From Kiritimatiellota bacterium (GTDB lineage: Bacteria; Verrucomicrobiota; Lentisphaeria; Oligosphaerales; JAADHN01), in NCBI GenBank assembly GCA_013151865.1, contig JAADHN010000092.1, forward strand, positions 1 to 56,434: a stretch of DNA of 56,434 nucleotides. The letters are read 5' to 3'. Of this stretch, positions 47,820-56,434 are shown in pieces. Every line of letters starts with the position of its first letter. Position 1 is the first letter of the stretch. Made by a program: the position numbers and the translations under genes. The notes under the pieces were generated by a model. That model worked only from the letters and a program-made list of their open reading frames with translations. It was not told the origin of the DNA and ran no database searches.

Positions 47820-50063
47820 TCAGGCGTCTGCAAGCCCCAACCCCGGGGAAGCGTCCGGCGCCTGTGGCAGGAACGCTGCGAACTTCGCGTGCAGTTTGGC
47901 CAGTTTGTCGAGGTAATACGGGATATTCTCGTCCCGGACCGCCGGGTCCGCGTCAGCCAGGAGTTTGGCGGCATCCGCCACGGCCACGTTTTTCTTGTTC
48001 CCGGTGACGTAAAAGGCCACTTGGTCGCCCTGGCTGTACTCGCGCCCGGAGCGGAGCACCAGTTCATAGGCCGCACTCCGTCGCGCCGTGCCGGCCTCGA
48101 GTTTTTCGGCGTAGACCCGCGGCGGAGTCGAGAGGACCTCCCGTTTTGCGAAGTCCGCAAGCGGCAGTGTGTGGTTGCGGATGGCCTCGGCGGTTCGCTC
48201 GTACAGGGCGGGGGCCTCAGCGCCGCGACCGGTCAACATCAGCTCGATCAATTGGTGGATGTACCGCCGCTGAAACGGTTCGAGCCCCCGCGATTTGAGG
48301 GCGGCGCCGGTCACGAGAACTTTGCCGTTGTGATCGAGTAGAGCGTAGTTCTTGCTCTTGTAACCGAACATGGCCGCGTAAGTCGCATCGACTTCGACTT
48401 CGATGCCGGGCGGCAGCTTTTCCTGGATGCGCCGTTGCATTTCGCCGGGGTCGCTCACGCTCGCGGGCGGCACGAAATAAAGACCATCGGTGTCCATCTC
48501 GATGACCACGGCCTCTTGGCTTTCGAGGAAACTCAGCATCGAACGCAGGACCTCGCGACCTCGCGCCGTGACCGCTTCGGCCATCCGGTAGTCGTTGAAC
48601 GTGCCCTGCGAGAAACCGAGGTAACCGTAAAAAGAGTTGATTAGAATCTTGAATGAACTCTGCAGCGCGTCGAAATACTCTCTCTCGGCTTCCGAGGCGG
48701 CATGGCGCGCGGCGTCCTTGGCCGTTAGACGGAAGCGGCGCAACTCTGCCAGGTAGAGCCGGAATACGTCGGCCGTGTCCCGGCTCGGACGCATGCCCGC
48801 GCTGATGATGATGGACGGGTAAAGAGACCGCACGTCCGCGTGCCAGACATTCGTGAAGACCCCGGTTTCAAGCGAGTCGGTCAATCCCCCCTGGAACGGG
48901 CGTGCCGGCTCGGGTTCCGGTACGGAGCGGTCCCGTTCCATGTAAGCCGCCACCAGCATGGCGTCGATTCGCGTTGCGCTGCCCCGACATACACAGTTTT
49001 GATACGTGAACGGCACTAGTTGCGCTTGGTAGAACGAGCTGGGGGACAGGACCCGGCTGATGGCCTCCGTTTCGCGCACGTCGTCCATGGCGTAGGCTCG
49101 CAACGTGTTCGGGTCCGTCGCGGCCAGCTCGGTGATCGACTCCGGCCGGACGTATGTCCGATCCTCGGCAGCGACCCCGAAATACCGGGCGACCGCCTTC
49201 AGGCCGTAGCTTTCCATGTCTCGGTGACTGACGTCGTAAAGCCGGACCAAGTGCAGGGTGTCCACCACGTGCCGCCCGTAAATGTCGAACCGGGTGTAAC
49301 TCGATTTGCGTTCCCCCGCGGTGAATCGGGACGATCTGGACTTGACCACGGACCCGTTGCGGCCCAGGGCCAAGCGGATCCGGTGACGTTTGCATCGTTC
49401 CGCGATGTACGGGAGGTCGAAATCGAAAATGTTGTGCCCCTCGATGACGTCCGGGTCCCTCTCGCGTACCAAACGGATCATTTCCCGGAGCATCTCGGCT
49501 TCCGTGAATTCCGGCACGGCCAGGCAGCGCTCCCAACCGCCGCTGTCCCGCATGGCAATGACCGTGATCTCGTCTCCGGCGCGTTTGGCATTCGGGAAAT
49601 CGTAGCCGGGCGTCGTTCGCGTTTCGATGTCGATCTGCATGCGGAGGATGTCCCGGAACACCATGCCCCGGAACAGACGCGCCGGAAGCAGGGAAAGCAA
49701 CTGTTGCACCTGATCGCTGAACACACGGTACGGTGCGCCCGGTTGCGTCGGAGAACGCCCGGTTTGCAGTTTCAGGAACTTCAGTGCCTTGAAGTAGGTA
49801 TCCGAATCCGGGAAATGGACCCGAGTGTTGAAGCGGGCGTCTCCCTTGAGAGGGTGCACTTCGACCGCGCCCGGCAGGGCCTGACCAAGCCCGACCCCGG
49901 CCGTCAGCAACCATGGGTGAAACGTTACGCGCCGGCTCGTCACCGTTCCGTTGTCTTCCCGCCGGAACAGTGCGGCCGTGCCGTCGGGGGCGGGCTCCAC
50001 CGCCACAAGTCGCTGAAACCGACTCGGGCACAATGCCTCGAAACTAATGGGCTGCTTGCTCAT
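47820..50063 (-). CDS. B-family DNA polymerase with 3'-5' exonuclease
   Basis: A 747-residue family B DNA polymerase. All six signatures are present. Exo I is DIETRT near residue 141, Exo II EGHNIFDFD, Exo III YAMDDVRE. The polymerase motifs are A (DVRSLYPSIII near 414), B (KILINSFYGYLG) and C (EMDTDGLYFV near 520, with two Asp). So it should proofread and extend. It is close in length to E. coli Pol II and archaeal PolB. Bacteria use this type in damage tolerance; this window cannot show its role. Start: ATG 50063 (MSKQPIS) fits ggag about 10 bases away; ATG 50072 is too close. The membrane protein gene follows 10 bases later. Confidence 0.93.
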   Translation of the reverse strand: MSKQPISFEALCPSRFQRLVAVEPAPDGTAALFRREDNGTVTSRRVTFHPWLLTAGVGLGQALPGAVEVHPLKGDARFNTRVHFPDSDTYFKALKFLKLQTGRSPTQPGAPYRVFSDQVQQLLSLLPARLFRGMVFRDILRMQIDIETRTTPGYDFPNAKRAGDEITVIAMRDSGGWERCLAVPEFTEAEMLREMIRLVRERDPDVIEGHNIFDFDLPYIAERCKRHRIRLALGRNGSVVKSRSSRFTAGERKSSYTRFDIYGRHVVDTLHLVRLYDVSHRDMESYGLKAVARYFGVAAEDRTYVRPESITELAATDPNTLRAYAMDDVRETEAISRVLSPSSFYQAQLVPFTYQNCVCRGSATRIDAMLVAAYMERDRSVPEPEPARPFQGGLTDSLETGVFTNVWHADVRSLYPSIIISAGMRPSRDTADVFRLYLAELRRFRLTAKDAARHAASEAEREYFDALQSSFKILINSFYGYLGFSQGTFNDYRMAEAVTARGREVLRSMLSFLESQEAVVIEMDTDGLYFVPPASVSDPGEMQRRIQEKLPPGIEVEVDATYAAMFGYKSKNYALLDHNGKVLVTGAALKSRGLEPFQRRYIHQLIELMLTGRGAEAPALYERTAEAIRNHTLPLADFAKREVLSTPPRVYAEKLEAGTARRSAAYELVLRSGREYSQGDQVAFYVTGNKKNVAVADAAKLLADADPAVRDENIPYYLDKLAKLHAKFAAFLPQAPDASPGLGLADA

Positions 50064-50346
50064 TTCCGCCATTCTCCAGCGTGCCCGGGAACCCTTGCAG
50101 CCATCCGCGGCAGATCTCAAAATCCGCTCGGCAGTATGCTCCCGACCTCACAGCCTCTTGCCGACTTCCATCCCCGGCCCGGTCCCAAAGGAGGTAGTCC
50201 CTCGGAAGCCGTGCCGTTTTCAGGGCGACCCGTGGCGAGCCACCCCAAAAAGATGATGCCGGACCGACCGCGGCGGATGTCCTTGCAAGACCCCCTTCGA
50301 AACAAGGCGCGCTGCTCCACGCGCCCTATTCGGACGGACTCCCGCA

Positions 50347-50570: not shown

Positions 50571-53500
50571 TCATCGGTCGAGGCGACGCCGCAGCCAGGC
50601 ACGCCAAGAATTGACGTCGGAGGCGAAATCCACCCCGGCCGCGACCGGCAGGGGCTGCGTCAACGAATATCCGAAGCTCGGTAGGGGAGCGGCCCCGCGG
50701 TCGGCGGCTTCCTCCCGGAGCCGCAGGATGAGGGGGACGGCCTCGGGGCGATTCATGGCGACGCAGGCCCTGCGGACGGAATTGTTGATCAGGCAGTGCC
50801 CTTTGTCGTCCCGGAGCCGGTCGGCCAGTTCCCGGATCGCGGGCAGGTAGGCCGGGTCCGGCAGACAGTTCCAAATCCAACCGAGCGCCTTCTTTGCTTT
50901 GATTGCCGCGGCCTGTTTTTGCTGGAGTGTTTTGGCCCGCCGCACGGTATCGAGCAGACTTTTCATGTCGATTCGGGACCGCACCCGTGCCTTTGCCGCG
51001 GGGACGCCAAGGAGCGTGAGTGCGCAAAGATGTTGGTCCGTAGGGTGATCGAACCATGCCTTGACATATCCCGCCTTTTCGAGCGGTTCGAGCATGTCGG
51101 GATCGCCGGTCTGTGCGAGGGTCGTGAGCACAATGCGAAAGAGTGGGTCTTTGGGATTGGTCAGGATGTCGTTCAATGCCGGTTTCGCCCAATGTCCGGC
51201 GAGGCTCAGGAGCGCATTGACGAGAGACGAACGGGCGGCGCCCGCGGCATGCCGAGCCGTTCGGGCGAGGGCGGATATGTCATCCGGTGAGATTCTCCCT
51301 TGCCACAACAGTGAACGGATTTCCTGGGCTGCCGCCGACTGCAGCGTATGGTCGGAAGACGCCAGCGCCTGAATGAGCAGCGGTGCGGCGGCGTCTCCGA
51401 GTTGCGAAGCCAATGCCCGCAAGGCTTGGTCCCGCAAGTCCCGAGGTTCGCCGGTATCGCGGCAGATGGCCAGCAGTGCCTGGGTCACTTTGGGGTCTAT
51501 CCCGCGCCATGTGGCGATCAAAATGAGTTGACGTCGGTCGGGAATGCTCTTGTCTCGCAACTTCTTGGCCAATGACGCGAACGACGGCGGGCGCGACGCG
51601 CCGGCGATGTCATGTACTTTGAAATCGGGGGCCTGGAACCAGTATTCGCCCCTGGGCCGAAACACGGCCATGAGTCCCTGTTTGTGCATGCGCAGACTTT
51701 GGGCGTCGCGGAGCGTTTCCGTGTTCCGTTGACCCGCGAATCCGCCACTCATGTTGAACGAGACGAAGAAGCGCTCCTGGGGGTAATCGGTTTGGAGGTC
51801 GACGTATTTGTCCGCGAAAGAATCGACGACCGTGCCCGGTCCCTCGGCGCGCCGCAGGAGCTTGCCGTCCGCGGGTGAGAAAACCAGGAGTTCGCCAAGA
51901 GCGTTTGCGACGACGACTTGTTTGGCGTGGCGGTAGCGGAAGATGGGTGGAGAAATCCGTGTCCATGCAGTGTATCGCCAGCGGATGTGTCCATTGCGGA
52001 TGTCGATAGCGAAGAGGATGCCGTCGTCGGCATTGACGGCATAGACGGCGTCCGGCATCAGCCAGAATGCGTTGTTGAGGTTATGCAGGATTCCTTTCCG
52101 TTCTGCCGGGGTCCGTGCTCGGCGCGGGTACGGGGCTCGATATTCGAGGGAGCAGGCCCAGCGCACCGTTCCGGCGTCCGGCGACATTCGCAGGACAAAC
52201 CCGTTTTCAGTGAGAATATACAGGTCGTCTTTCCCCACGAGTCCCAGTTGCCTTCCGCCACCGTGGGTGACATACGAACGCAAGGCATCGTCCACGATCG
52301 GTTTTTCAGGCATTGTAGTCTTATGCCGTGCAATCGGTTGACGGCGTTTGTTCTTCGGTTCATTCATGTACTTTTGCGCCAGTTTCTTCTGCACGGTGGC
52401 GGCGGGGGTCTTGAGGCGGGACTTCTTGACACGTCGTGCGAACTTCGCGGCCTGTTCCGGCGTGTCATGCTGAAGGTAGTAGTGGGCGATGTCGTTCCAC
52501 AGCCGTAGGTCCTCGAGAGTCGCCGGTGGGGTATCGAGCAGAGACTCGGTGAACCGGTTCAACTGTTTCGGTCTTCCCAGAGCTTTCAGCATCCGCCAGA
52601 CGTCGGGGTGGAGGGAAGCGGGTGCGGGACCGGCCTTCTGAAGTTCATCGTACGCCTTGAGTGCCTGGATCGGATGGAGTTCTGCGAGATTTCGAACGAT
52701 TGCAGCCAGCAACCGGCGTCGGTTCGTTCCCCGGGCGGTTCGTAAACGGCGAATGACGGCGGCGTAGGCGGGGCCCAGGCGCGGCGTCCCACCGGCACGG
52801 CCGTAGCCGCTACGAATCGTCCAATCGGCTTTCAGATACAGGGACAGGGCCTCGTCGGTTCGTCCCAGTCGTTCCAGGATGGCGGCAACGCGCGACAAGC
52901 TGTGCGGCGGCGGGGTCCCGACGCGCAGCAGTTCGGCATTCGCGGCCGCCTTGTCGCCACTGTCGAGCAAGAGGTCGGCCAAGCGCAGGTGCACGTCCGC
53001 AACCGGTCCCGCATAGCCCCGCCGTTCTGTGTAGGGAAGAACGCGCCGCCAAAGTCGAATGCGTTCATCCGTGCGATCGAGGCGGTTGAGGAGCCGATCC
53101 ATGGCTTCGGACAAAGGCGCGACATACGGATTGAAGGTCGGCTGTTTCAATGCCATGTCGAGCCCCCGTCGATACACATCGAGGGCTTCGTCGACCTGCG
53201 AAGACGCCTGGAGAATGTTGCCCAATTCAAGAAGCCCTTCCGGACTCGAACCTCTGAGATACGAGCGGCGCTCGACGGTGCGCGCGCGGTTGGACCCGAA
53301 AACCGTCGTTCGAGCTTCGAGGGCCAACTCCAGCGGATGACTTGGCGGGCCGTCCGGCGTCAGCGTCATTCGTTCGAGACGTCTCACCGCCTCCGCCGTC
53401 ACTTCGTCGGGTGCATCCAGAGTACCGGAGACCGCGACCGTGCGGTAGTGAACGCCGCGGTGGACATCGAGCGGCTGCAGAGCCAGAGCCAGGTTCTTTC

Positions 53501-56003
53501 CGGTGGTCGTGTACCACCCCTGCAGCAGGATGTCGGCGCCCAGTATCTTCCCGAGCTTCATCGAGTTGTTTCGGGAAAACGCCGACGCCGTCCCGAGTTC
53601 CGACAGTGCCGCGGCCAGATGCTCTCTGTCCACGGTCTGCCAGTGTTCGCTCGAGTCGAGGGCAACACCCAGGAGGTCCGCGAGGGCTTTCGCCGGAATT
53701 TCTGTTTTCGATTCGGACAGGGACAGGGGGGTGAGCCCCAGTATCGCGACAACGTGTTTCCCCGCGGGTTTGACCGGTGTCTTGGCCGCGGCGGAGAGAG
53801 CCGCCCGGAGCGTTTCGCTCCCCAATTCCTTCTTGATCCGGGCGACTGTTTGCGCCGCGGTTTTCTCGAGATCGACGTTCCACACGGGGACCTGCAGGAT
53901 ACGCCGACTGAATGCGTCCCGATAATCGATCCACCAGACCGCCAAGTTCCGTTTTGTCCCGATTCTCTCGGAGGTCACGAAGACTATGGCGTCCGCGGCG
54001 ATTCGTACGGGACCGGCCCCGTCGGAGTCGGATGTGCCCGTTCCCAGTTGCCCGGTTTGTTCTTCCTTCCCCAGGCTGGGAGTCTCCGTTCTCTCCACCA
54101 GTCGCGCCCACGGTTCCCGACCGAGACGACTGCTTATGGCACGCCGCAGAAACGCGACTCCGACGTTTGTTCGGTCGAAGCTCGTCACCGCCAGACGAAC
54201 CGGACGCGGCGAGTGCGGCACGGCGAGAATCGGTACGGCGCCGCCCCCGGGACGATACCAGACGGCCATTGGCAGGTCGAGGGAACAGGCCGTGCCGCCG
54301 GAGAGTTGCCCCGTGGCCCGGGCAATCCCTTCCACGGTCAGCGTGTACAGGTACAGGTGATCGTTTTCGACATTGCGGTCCACGAAGTCGGTCACGGAAG
54401 CCGGCCCGCGAAAGACGACCCGGAACGGCGCGGCATTGCTGTAACTCATCCAACGCCCCGGCCGGACCCGTGCCGTCTCGGCGCATGCCCGCCGAACGAC
54501 GAACTCCGGTCCCTCGACCCAGTCCCCGCCCGAATAGGACAGGGAATCCCAGGAAAGACGAACCTGCCCGTTTCCGGCGGCGGCCCGGAACCCCGTGGGG
54601 TAGGGTGGGCGCACCATGGAACAGTGGAGCGTGCGTTTCGTGCCGTCCGCGGTACTGTCCCGTGTAAAATCGAGGCGGACAGCGGCAGGGCCGGGGCCAA
54701 TCGTCCAGCGACCATTCCTGTCCGCCGCAAGCTCGAAAGGCGAGACACCATCCGCCGTCCGAACCCGAAGTTTCGATCCGGGGCTCGGGCGGGAATGGAG
54801 GGAGGCGGCAATGTCGATCCCGGGATTGTCGGGGAGACGACCGCCGGCGGGGAGAGTGTTATACAGTTTGCGCGGGCAGAAGACGAAGGACTCCCCGGTC
54901 CGCCGGCACAGCGGGAGTTTCACTGTGGGACCATGCTCCGTTACGGGGCGGCAGAGCGCCGTTCGCTCGCTGAGAGTAAATGCTCCCTCGAACGAGCTCC
55001 ACGCCTTGGCCGCCCACACACCCTCGACCGCATAGCCGAGCTGTGCAAGGAATCCGGGGTTCACGGTTTCCGTGGGCAGTTCGACTCGGCCTTTTGCGAA
55101 CGGCGCACGACCCAGTTCCGTGAAACCCGTGCCCCGAACGATTCCTGCGCCGTAGATCGCCCGTGTCGTACCGACGACGATTTTGGGCTGTTCGAGAAGC
55201 GCGGGGATTGCGTTGCTCCGGGAAGGCCATTGAAGGAAAGGCCGTTGTCCGGCGGCCTGAACCAGCGTGGCCCGCGGAAGATCGAAAGCGACGGCCGTGC
55301 AGACGCCGCTCTCGGTCGGAACGGCCCCTGGGGCTTCCGATGCGACAAAGCGGACCTTGTAACGCATAAGGCGTCCCGGCGGCGCACCCGGATCGAGGAG
55401 CCGGAAGTCGTATCGATACAATGACGTTCCGGTCGAGGGGGACCCGGAGCCGGTGCGGAGTCCGTCGAGCCGCATTTTCGACAGTGTCTGCACAACCCGA
55501 AAAGGGCTGCCGGGAGCATCGGCCCGGAGCAGTTCGAGGCATTGCAGGCCGGGCCAGAGCGCGGGGGGATTGCCTTGTCCGGAGGTTGCGTAGCGTCGAG
55601 TTGTCGGCGGCCCCTCGACCAGGACCGTAATATGGAGAGCCACGGCGGGGGCGAGTTTCGGCAGGCCCGGGGTGGCGCGGTACTGAATCTTCGCGGTCTG
55701 CGTCATCCGCGGGCATTCCGCCGCAACCAGTACGGGCTGCGTCTCGACCCACCAGCCAACGACTCGATCCGGGGCCGGCCGGGGGGTCGCGGCCTTTGGA
55801 ACGGGGCGAACCAATGCGCGCCAGACGCCCCGCCTCGCCGGAGTCGTCCCCCGACCTCGTTCCCCGGGCCGGCCGCGGGAAAAGACGCCGCCGGGTCCGC
55901 GATGCCGGTCCCGGCGGACCTGGTCCGCGATCCGTAAGCCGGCGACAACGAGCAGGGCCAACGCCGCGATCCCGACGATCCCTTTGAGAACAGTCTTCTT
56001 CAT
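50571..56003 (-). CDS. Giant anchored multidomain protein (FN3-like, CsgG-like, TPR, PQQ, HEAT)
   Basis: An 1810-residue protein. Residues about 6-26 form an N-terminal membrane anchor (IVGIAALALLVVAGLRI), then an Arg/Pro-rich linker to about 75, and beta-rich modules to about 460. An FN3-like segment is near 470-590 (GNGQVRLSWDS). Two CsgG/FlgO-like domains are near 600-740 and 750-890 (VRLAVTSFDRTNVG; HWQTVDREHLAAALSELG; LGKILGADILLQG). TPR-like helices are at about 920-1075, a PQQ-like propeller part at about 1250-1400 (DDLYILTENGFVLRMSPDAGTVRW) and HEAT-like repeats at about 1490-1780. It probably is a periplasmic or outer-facing scaffold; no enzyme motif was found. Start: ATG 56003 with aggag. 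The tandem hairpin repeat lies 35 bases upstream. Confidence 0.75.
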   Translation of the reverse strand: MKKTVLKGIVGIAALALLVVAGLRIADQVRRDRHRGPGGVFSRGRPGERGRGTTPARRGVWRALVRPVPKAATPRPAPDRVVGWWVETQPVLVAAECPRMTQTAKIQYRATPGLPKLAPAVALHITVLVEGPPTTRRYATSGQGNPPALWPGLQCLELLRADAPGSPFRVVQTLSKMRLDGLRTGSGSPSTGTSLYRYDFRLLDPGAPPGRLMRYKVRFVASEAPGAVPTESGVCTAVAFDLPRATLVQAAGQRPFLQWPSRSNAIPALLEQPKIVVGTTRAIYGAGIVRGTGFTELGRAPFAKGRVELPTETVNPGFLAQLGYAVEGVWAAKAWSSFEGAFTLSERTALCRPVTEHGPTVKLPLCRRTGESFVFCPRKLYNTLPAGGRLPDNPGIDIAASLHSRPSPGSKLRVRTADGVSPFELAADRNGRWTIGPGPAAVRLDFTRDSTADGTKRTLHCSMVRPPYPTGFRAAAGNGQVRLSWDSLSYSGGDWVEGPEFVVRRACAETARVRPGRWMSYSNAAPFRVVFRGPASVTDFVDRNVENDHLYLYTLTVEGIARATGQLSGGTACSLDLPMAVWYRPGGGAVPILAVPHSPRPVRLAVTSFDRTNVGVAFLRRAISSRLGREPWARLVERTETPSLGKEEQTGQLGTGTSDSDGAGPVRIAADAIVFVTSERIGTKRNLAVWWIDYRDAFSRRILQVPVWNVDLEKTAAQTVARIKKELGSETLRAALSAAAKTPVKPAGKHVVAILGLTPLSLSESKTEIPAKALADLLGVALDSSEHWQTVDREHLAAALSELGTASAFSRNNSMKLGKILGADILLQGWYTTTGKNLALALQPLDVHRGVHYRTVAVSGTLDAPDEVTAEAVRRLERMTLTPDGPPSHPLELALEARTTVFGSNRARTVERRSYLRGSSPEGLLELGNILQASSQVDEALDVYRRGLDMALKQPTFNPYVAPLSEAMDRLLNRLDRTDERIRLWRRVLPYTERRGYAGPVADVHLRLADLLLDSGDKAAANAELLRVGTPPPHSLSRVAAILERLGRTDEALSLYLKADWTIRSGYGRAGGTPRLGPAYAAVIRRLRTARGTNRRRLLAAIVRNLAELHPIQALKAYDELQKAGPAPASLHPDVWRMLKALGRPKQLNRFTESLLDTPPATLEDLRLWNDIAHYYLQHDTPEQAAKFARRVKKSRLKTPAATVQKKLAQKYMNEPKNKRRQPIARHKTTMPEKPIVDDALRSYVTHGGGRQLGLVGKDDLYILTENGFVLRMSPDAGTVRWACSLEYRAPYPRRARTPAERKGILHNLNNAFWLMPDAVYAVNADDGILFAIDIRNGHIRWRYTAWTRISPPIFRYRHAKQVVVANALGELLVFSPADGKLLRRAEGPGTVVDSFADKYVDLQTDYPQERFFVSFNMSGGFAGQRNTETLRDAQSLRMHKQGLMAVFRPRGEYWFQAPDFKVHDIAGASRPPSFASLAKKLRDKSIPDRRQLILIATWRGIDPKVTQALLAICRDTGEPRDLRDQALRALASQLGDAAAPLLIQALASSDHTLQSAAAQEIRSLLWQGRISPDDISALARTARHAAGAARSSLVNALLSLAGHWAKPALNDILTNPKDPLFRIVLTTLAQTGDPDMLEPLEKAGYVKAWFDHPTDQHLCALTLLGVPAAKARVRSRIDMKSLLDTVRRAKTLQQKQAAAIKAKKALGWIWNCLPDPAYLPAIRELADRLRDDKGHCLINNSVRRACVAMNRPEAVPLILRLREEAADRGAAPLPSFGYSLTQPLPVAAGVDFASDVNSWRAWLRRRLDR

Positions 56004-56037
56004 GGCTCACATCTCCTCCTTTGGAGGGCGCCGGCTT

Positions 56038-56434
56038 GCCCGCAAAAGCGGTGTTGAAACACCGCACTCCGAAAGACGCTTTGCGTCGTAATCTCGCGGG
56101 CTTGCCCGCTTTGGAGTGCTGCGATTCATCGCAGCTTTCCCTTGCGGTATAACGCGTTGCCCGCAAAAGCGGTGTTGAAACACCGCACTCCACGGATGCT
56201 TTGCATCGTTCCACCGCGGGCTTGCCCGCTTTGGAGTGCTGCGATTCATCGCAGCTTTCCCTTGCGGTATAACGCGTTGCCCGCAAAAGCGGTGTTGAAA
56301 CACCGAAAGACGCTTCGCGTCGTAACCTCGCGGCCTCGCCGCTTTGGAGTGCTGCGGTTTATCGCAGCTTTCCCTTGCGGTATAACGCGTTGCCCGCAAA
56401 AGCGGTGTTGAAACACCGCACTCCGAAAGACGCT
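56038..56434. repeat. Tandem structured repeat, units of 121, 120 and 113 bp plus a partial unit
   Basis: Units begin at 56038, 56159, 56279 and 56392 with the same word (gcccgcaaaagcggtgttg); the last runs off the window. Each unit folds into several hairpins: GCGGTGTT/AACACCGC, GACGC/GCGTC, CGGGC/GCCCG and GCTGCGAT/ATCGCAGC, with long-range pairing of CACTCC to GGAGTG. The hairpin stems change together between units (GACGC/GCGTC becomes GATGC/GCATC in unit 2). A minus-strand open frame through it is a by-product of the repeat. No spacers of unique sequence exist, so it is not a CRISPR. Confidence 0.9.

Follow-up and report, generated by a model that had tools for sequence, protein, structure and literature searches.

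A tandem array of inverted GGAG-headed REP hairpins, probably the flank of a REPtron, at a contig end of a Kiritimatiellota bacterium

The DNA analysed here (the window: 56,434 nt, the entire contig C142 of a Kiritimatiellota bacterium) ends in a tandem array of hairpins, which we regard with high confidence as one flank of a REPtron, in which inverted REP pairs (REPINs, arranged as a BIME-like composite) are amplified in tandem beside their own RAYT (REP-associated tyrosine transposase). We read the array in this way because 74 of 80 related RAYT loci carry the same GGAG hairpin, versus 1 of 27 control loci of other RAYT types, and because all seven pairs of its stem covary. The RAYT appears to sit just past the contig end, between co-directional csgG-like and 1810-aa genes, across a putative join of two contigs. 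Judged by sequence, the hairpins are most likely recognised by this neighbouring single-strand transposase, and we take the array to be its single-stranded DNA substrate, not a leader of the giant gene.

Tandem units of inverted hairpins

The first-pass annotation of this DNA had described a tandem hairpin repeat, AT-richer than its surroundings, and both points hold: TRF delimits an array at 56036-56434 (period 120, 3.4 copies, score 620), with a GC content of 57.6% versus 63.0% for the window and 67.4% for the adjoining sequence. Its units (56036-56156, 56157-56276, 56277-56389 and a partial one at 56390-56434) are 83-92% alike and in register. The partial unit stops at the contig's last base, and since the array runs off the contig end, its copy number is a lower bound. 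Earlier placed 35 bases before the 1810-residue gene, the array does end just upstream of it, at a measured 32 nt from the ATG (56003). Folded as single-stranded DNA, two units reach -69.9 kcal/mol (z = -7.0 versus shuffles).

Each unit consists of two inverted REP hairpins headed GGAGTGC together with two extra hairpins. Read on its own strand, a REP has the format TT[TC]-GGAGT-stem-loop-stem-TTT; REP-a and REP-b differ in their stems, share an identical head and are inverted in orientation. The strands run -,+,-,+,+,- through the window with one head lost, the alternating arrangement of inverted pairs that marks REPs, REPINs and BIMEs. The lost head belongs to one REP of unit 3, where 7 nt (CACTCCG) are deleted. 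Bit scores below refer to the hairpin covariance model R1.

50571-56003, minus strand: neighbouring gene, 1810 aa, weak CsgG, TPR and PQQ matches
56036-56434, no strand assigned: tandem REPIN/BIME-like array of three complete units (121, 120 and 113 nt) plus 45 nt of a fourth
56045-56073, minus strand: REP-b of unit 1, TTCGGAGT-GCGGTGTTTCAACACCGC-TTT, inverted to REP-a (37.8 bits)
56075-56087, no strand assigned: accessory hairpin GACGC-TTT-GCGTC adjoining REP-b, unit 1
56096-56109, no strand assigned: accessory hairpin GCGGGC-TT-GCCCGC adjoining REP-a, unit 1
56110-56138, plus strand: REP-a of unit 1, TTTGGAGT-GCTGCGATTCATCGCAGC-TTT, head GGAG, 7-bp stem (39.8 bits)
56166-56194, minus strand: REP-b of unit 2 (35.2 bits)
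56195-56207: accessory hairpin adjoining REP-b, unit 2, GATGC/GCATC
56216-56229: accessory hairpin adjoining REP-a, unit 2
56230-56258, plus strand: REP-a of unit 2 (39.8 bits)
56289-56305, minus strand: REP-b of unit 3, hairpin retained, GGAGTGC head gone through the 7-nt deletion (placed by alignment; no R1 match)
56309-56321: accessory hairpin adjoining REP-b, unit 3, GACGC/GCGTC
56330-56342: accessory hairpin adjoining REP-a, unit 3, shortened
56343-56371, plus strand: REP-a of unit 3, G.T wobble at the seventh pair (36.4 bits)
56399-56427, minus strand: REP-b of the partial unit 4 (37.8 bits)

The annotation had argued for selection on structure from three sets of base changes, all of which are present: GACGC/GCGTC in units 1 and 3 versus GATGC/GCATC in unit 2, CGGGC/GCCCG reduced to CGGC/GCCG in unit 3, and an A-T pair turned into a G.T wobble in GCTGCGGT/ATCGCAGC of unit 3. 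We rejected covariation inside the array as proof of such selection. Among the eight copies of this genome a single pair changes on both sides, which 67 of 500 shuffles match, so the window alone cannot prove the point. The decisive evidence comes from relatives. We aligned 42 sequences, 40 of them selected solely by the head and the trailing TTT, plus two REPs from the window. Covariation scored 0.585 versus 0.164, a result that none of 500 shuffles gave (slides, 0.05-0.18); pairing holds in 90% of cells over the seven stem pairs, each of which shows double-sided changes. The covariance check on copies elsewhere, which the annotation had proposed, thus comes out in favour of structural selection.

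The RAYT gene on contig C106 and the inferred locus

Across the 6.2 Mb and 176 contigs of the same genome, the array unit has a single further site, the end of contig C106, where it lies on the opposite strand. There, outside the window, two blocks of units flank an ORF (L009:6136-6675) that matches NF047646 (REP_Tyr_transpos) at 80.9 bits, only just above the cutoff of 80, and Pfam Y1_Tnp weakly (21.4 bits, cutoff 23). The ORF carries the motifs NHYH and YVNENP, and a three-member profile finds E. coli TnpA_REP (4ER8; E 3e-9) with the HUH and Tyr motifs aligned; the domain is thus of the Y1/HUH type, with the HUH and Y...NP motifs of a RAYT. GGAG hairpins lie on both sides of the gene and on both strands, as flanking inverted REPs. 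Its GC3 is 58%, versus 69-78% in the neighbours, as expected of an acquired gene.

The last 27 nt of C142 overlap exactly with the first 27 nt of reverse-complemented C106, although this 27-mer recurs in other units and is by itself only suggestive of a join. C106 encodes a sigma factor, orf303, orf338 and csgG. In three relatives (G004, G005 and G017), large genes in the same direction come after csgG, and several of them match the CsgG domain; in a fourth (G020), the giant gene's homologues sit together with those of orf338 and csgG. Overlap and gene order in relatives support the putative order csgG, array-RAYT-array, 1810-aa gene. The first REP begins ~30 nt past the csgG stop, and the array ends just ahead of the ribosome-binding site of the giant gene, which is probably the far flank of the insertion and not part of the element.

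Beyond the giant gene (50571-56003), the window encodes a family-B DNA polymerase with exonuclease and polymerase domains (47820-50120, minus strand). The 1810-aa protein has a distant paralogue in the same genome (G000:C152:2919-6758). In several relatives, genes of this family, which matches CsgG, TPR and PQQ, cluster with those for orf338, csgG and an ECF sigma factor, and together they may form a surface or secretion system.

The hairpin covariance model found 12 copies of at least 33 bits in this genome, all at the C142 and C106 contig ends; among the best 150 first-look candidates that were scored, no dispersed copy beyond this locus reached 33 bits, the next-best match having 26.6. Confinement to one locus suggests a recent arrival or a weak copier. 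Marine bacteria also have REPs confined to the vicinity of their RAYT, a pattern that has been attributed to earlier horizontal transfer of that gene (PMC2817692). A RAYT can evidently reside in a genome whose REPs are still confined to one locus.

GGAG hairpins at RAYT loci and in related genomes

We fetched the 80 related RAYT loci, spread over at least 18 named phyla, by protein patterns alone. At the 74 positive loci, no more than 600 bp from the RAYT, GGAG is followed after one spacer nucleotide by a stem of 6 bp or longer; the background is a median of 6 loci over all 256 tetranucleotides, and 1-8 loci with shuffled flanks. The classical tags stay at background level (GTAG hairpins at 1-2 loci, GTGG at 4-6), and GAGT, found at 63 of the 80, is the GGAG motif shifted by one. 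GGAGTGC occurs at 5.7 per kb within 300 bp of the RAYT and at about 0.2 per kb beyond 600 bp. When pairing is not required, 70% of the GGAGTG occurrences near a RAYT nevertheless form a stem of at least 6 bp, versus 0.5% in shuffles. A conserved tetranucleotide before a covarying palindrome, as in REPs, is therefore present at these loci; the published GT[AG]G consensus does not rise above background there, which makes these REPs a variant and not members of the classical super-family.

The commonest close REP pair at these loci is +-. CT lies within 6 nt 3' of the hairpin foot in 90% of REPs; 5' of the head it occurs in 59%, so it is not always present there. We asked whether REPs in general have an accessory hairpin upstream of the head, and rejected the idea: at 15% of REPs versus 5% in shuffles, such a hairpin is lineage-specific. 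A second short hairpin of the GACGC/GCGTC type directly before the TTTGGAGTG head, giving a two-hairpin REP, is seen in the window (56075-56109) and in genome G056 (L024, L029 and L033); this form is found in the window's lineage and some relatives, and is not general across phyla.

The enzymes share features of their own. The HYH motif is kept in 78 of the 80 RAYTs, and a tree places 83 GGAG RAYTs on one side of a supported branch and 18 others on the other side, a separation that is weak evidence because the GGAG RAYTs were picked by similarity. In the region that contacts the guide in 4ER8, the clade has F or Y at the position of Q95 and mostly T at that of R104.

Run on 60 relatives, the covariance model found the copies that the own genome lacks: at least 124 in G011, 91 in G017, 73 in G058 and 71 in G022. 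The search for further copies thus succeeded in relatives, where many are dispersed, and the suggestion of a mobile intergenic element gains from these copies and from the RAYT association, though not from the window's own genome. REPs are present in 9 of 9 genomes with a close RAYT (the own genome included) versus 12 of 52 without one (p = 1.7e-5, a value that ignores relatedness among the genomes). In G011 and G056, many REPs occur with no cognate RAYT detected; REP copies may persist after their RAYT has gone or be parted from it, or the gene may have dropped out at contig breaks. The G011 genome, in which at least 124 REPs were found without a cognate RAYT, is 89% complete. Its REP pairs (L023, L028, L038 and L044) lie inside longer MITE-like elements with the shared outer sequence CATGCGCGTCAACTTAAG... 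and ...GTAAATACCC.

Other readings, a proposed mechanism and known systems

Between csgG and the giant gene, REP-derived hairpins may have been taken over by the host to terminate transcription or stabilise mRNA; this role, which is compatible with a mobile origin, we consider unlikely. Effects of REPs on mRNA stability, termination and translation have been reported in other bacteria (PMC6006769), and G004, from a different family of the order, independently has an inverted GGAG REP pair with different, longer stems in the same csgG/large-gene gap (L181:7045-7176); that pair, however, was spotted post hoc, and G004 holds at least 53 REPs. A leader of the 1810-aa gene, one of two options that the annotation had offered, is very improbable in the form of a cis-acting RNA (an attenuator or riboswitch-like element). 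The array stops at the right place, 32 nt before the start codon and immediately ahead of the ribosome-binding site, and its transcript would form a stable fold (by DNA parameters), yet the GGAG hairpin is absent near homologues of the gene in four relatives (G020, G015, G001 and G019) and at the own-genome paralogue on C152, units also lie on the other side of the RAYT, adjoining csgG, and an Rfam covariance-model scan of the array gave no relevant match. Equally hard to credit is an ordinary tandem satellite made by slippage with incidental hairpins: the similar, in-register units would suit it, but the RAYT association refutes it, head and stem recurring with full covariation beside one transposase clade in at least 18 phyla, and relatives hold dispersed copies. 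Slippage may explain only the tandem number. An assembly artefact, which the position at a contig end where the assembly broke might suggest, deserves almost no credence, as genuine substitutions and indels distinguish the units, which also occur inside C106 around the RAYT.

For the REPtron reading, we propose the following mechanism. In single-stranded DNA each REP would fold, and the RAYT, as an HUH/Y1 nuclease, would bind the hairpin and read GGAG as a guide. Guide bases A3 and G4 would select CT beside the hairpin foot, and the catalytic Tyr of YVNENP would cut and join, so that REP pairs are moved or copied; RAYT action or replication slippage could then stack units in tandem beside the gene. 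For the RAYTs from E. coli, Stenotrophomonas and Marinomonas, binding of single-stranded REPs involves the hairpin and GTAG; the cut falls at a CT (or CA) next to the hairpin, and the choice of site depends in part on the final two bases of the guide (PMC8266576). GGAG retains those two bases (AG) and differs at position 2. Roles in guide contact have been described for Q95 and R104 (PMC6006769), and we infer that the change at guide position 2 and the changes in the enzyme's guide-contact region may belong together.

The kind of element is already known: a REPtron with a tandem REPIN array. Tandem REPIN clusters lie beside RAYT genes in P. fluorescens SBW25 (PMC3116915) and, like ours, consist of inverted REP pairs with palindromic hairpins in near-identical tandem units that include the flanks; their heads are GTAG or GTGG, whereas here the head is GGAG, each unit has two accessory hairpins and REPs occupy one locus only. 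The GTAG and CGTC super-families (PMC3733652), of which the GTAG type is RAYT-associated, similarly have a short palindrome, a conserved unpaired tetranucleotide at one end and inverted dimers, but the tag here is GGAG(TGC), one nucleotide before the stem. E. coli TnpA_REP and its REP (4ER8; PMC8266576) offer a homologous HUH/Y1 nuclease and a hairpin with a 5' guide whose last two bases, AG, are thought to select CT; its sequence is distant (the profile match above), guide position 2 is T rather than G, and Q95 and R104 are replaced in our clade. TnpA_REP subclass 2.8 (PMC6006769) shares NHYH, W plus an aromatic residue, Y...NP and a Pro-containing N-terminus, a motif resemblance that may serve as a lead only. 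That subclass is reported only in Cyanobacteria, with GT[AG]G REPs, whereas our clade, compared with it by motifs, has W[FY]Q[YF]WD, at least 18 phyla and GGAG REPs.

Published REP tags are GT[AG]G or CGTC, and the string 'GGAG' does not occur in the text of PMC3733652. We found no description of GGAG-tagged REPs in the literature searched, the scope of which excluded the 2017 GBE RAYT classification and its supplements. The GGAG head and the HYH/W[FY]Q[YF]WD clade look like an undescribed variant. We lean towards the view that GGAG-tagged REPs form a third super-family, one that goes with this single RAYT clade in at least 18 bacterial phyla; the enzyme's guide-contact residues would then have changed in step with guide base 2. 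For the problem of how a RAYT selects its REPs, a clade with a one-base guide change and freely varying stems is a natural experiment: it could show which residues switch guide position 2 from T to G, and whether CT cleavage persists because A3 and G4 persist. Outside Proteobacteria, a large population of REPs would escape any search that, like that of PMC6006769, looks for GT[AG]G alone.

A different arrangement was seen in G013 (L077:600-3250), where a RAYT-like gene of another type (NHVH) lies between two inverted TCGGAGTGGGCGAGACGCCCACTCC arrays, with a spacing of roughly 90-270 nt, often 125, and the head itself within the palindrome.
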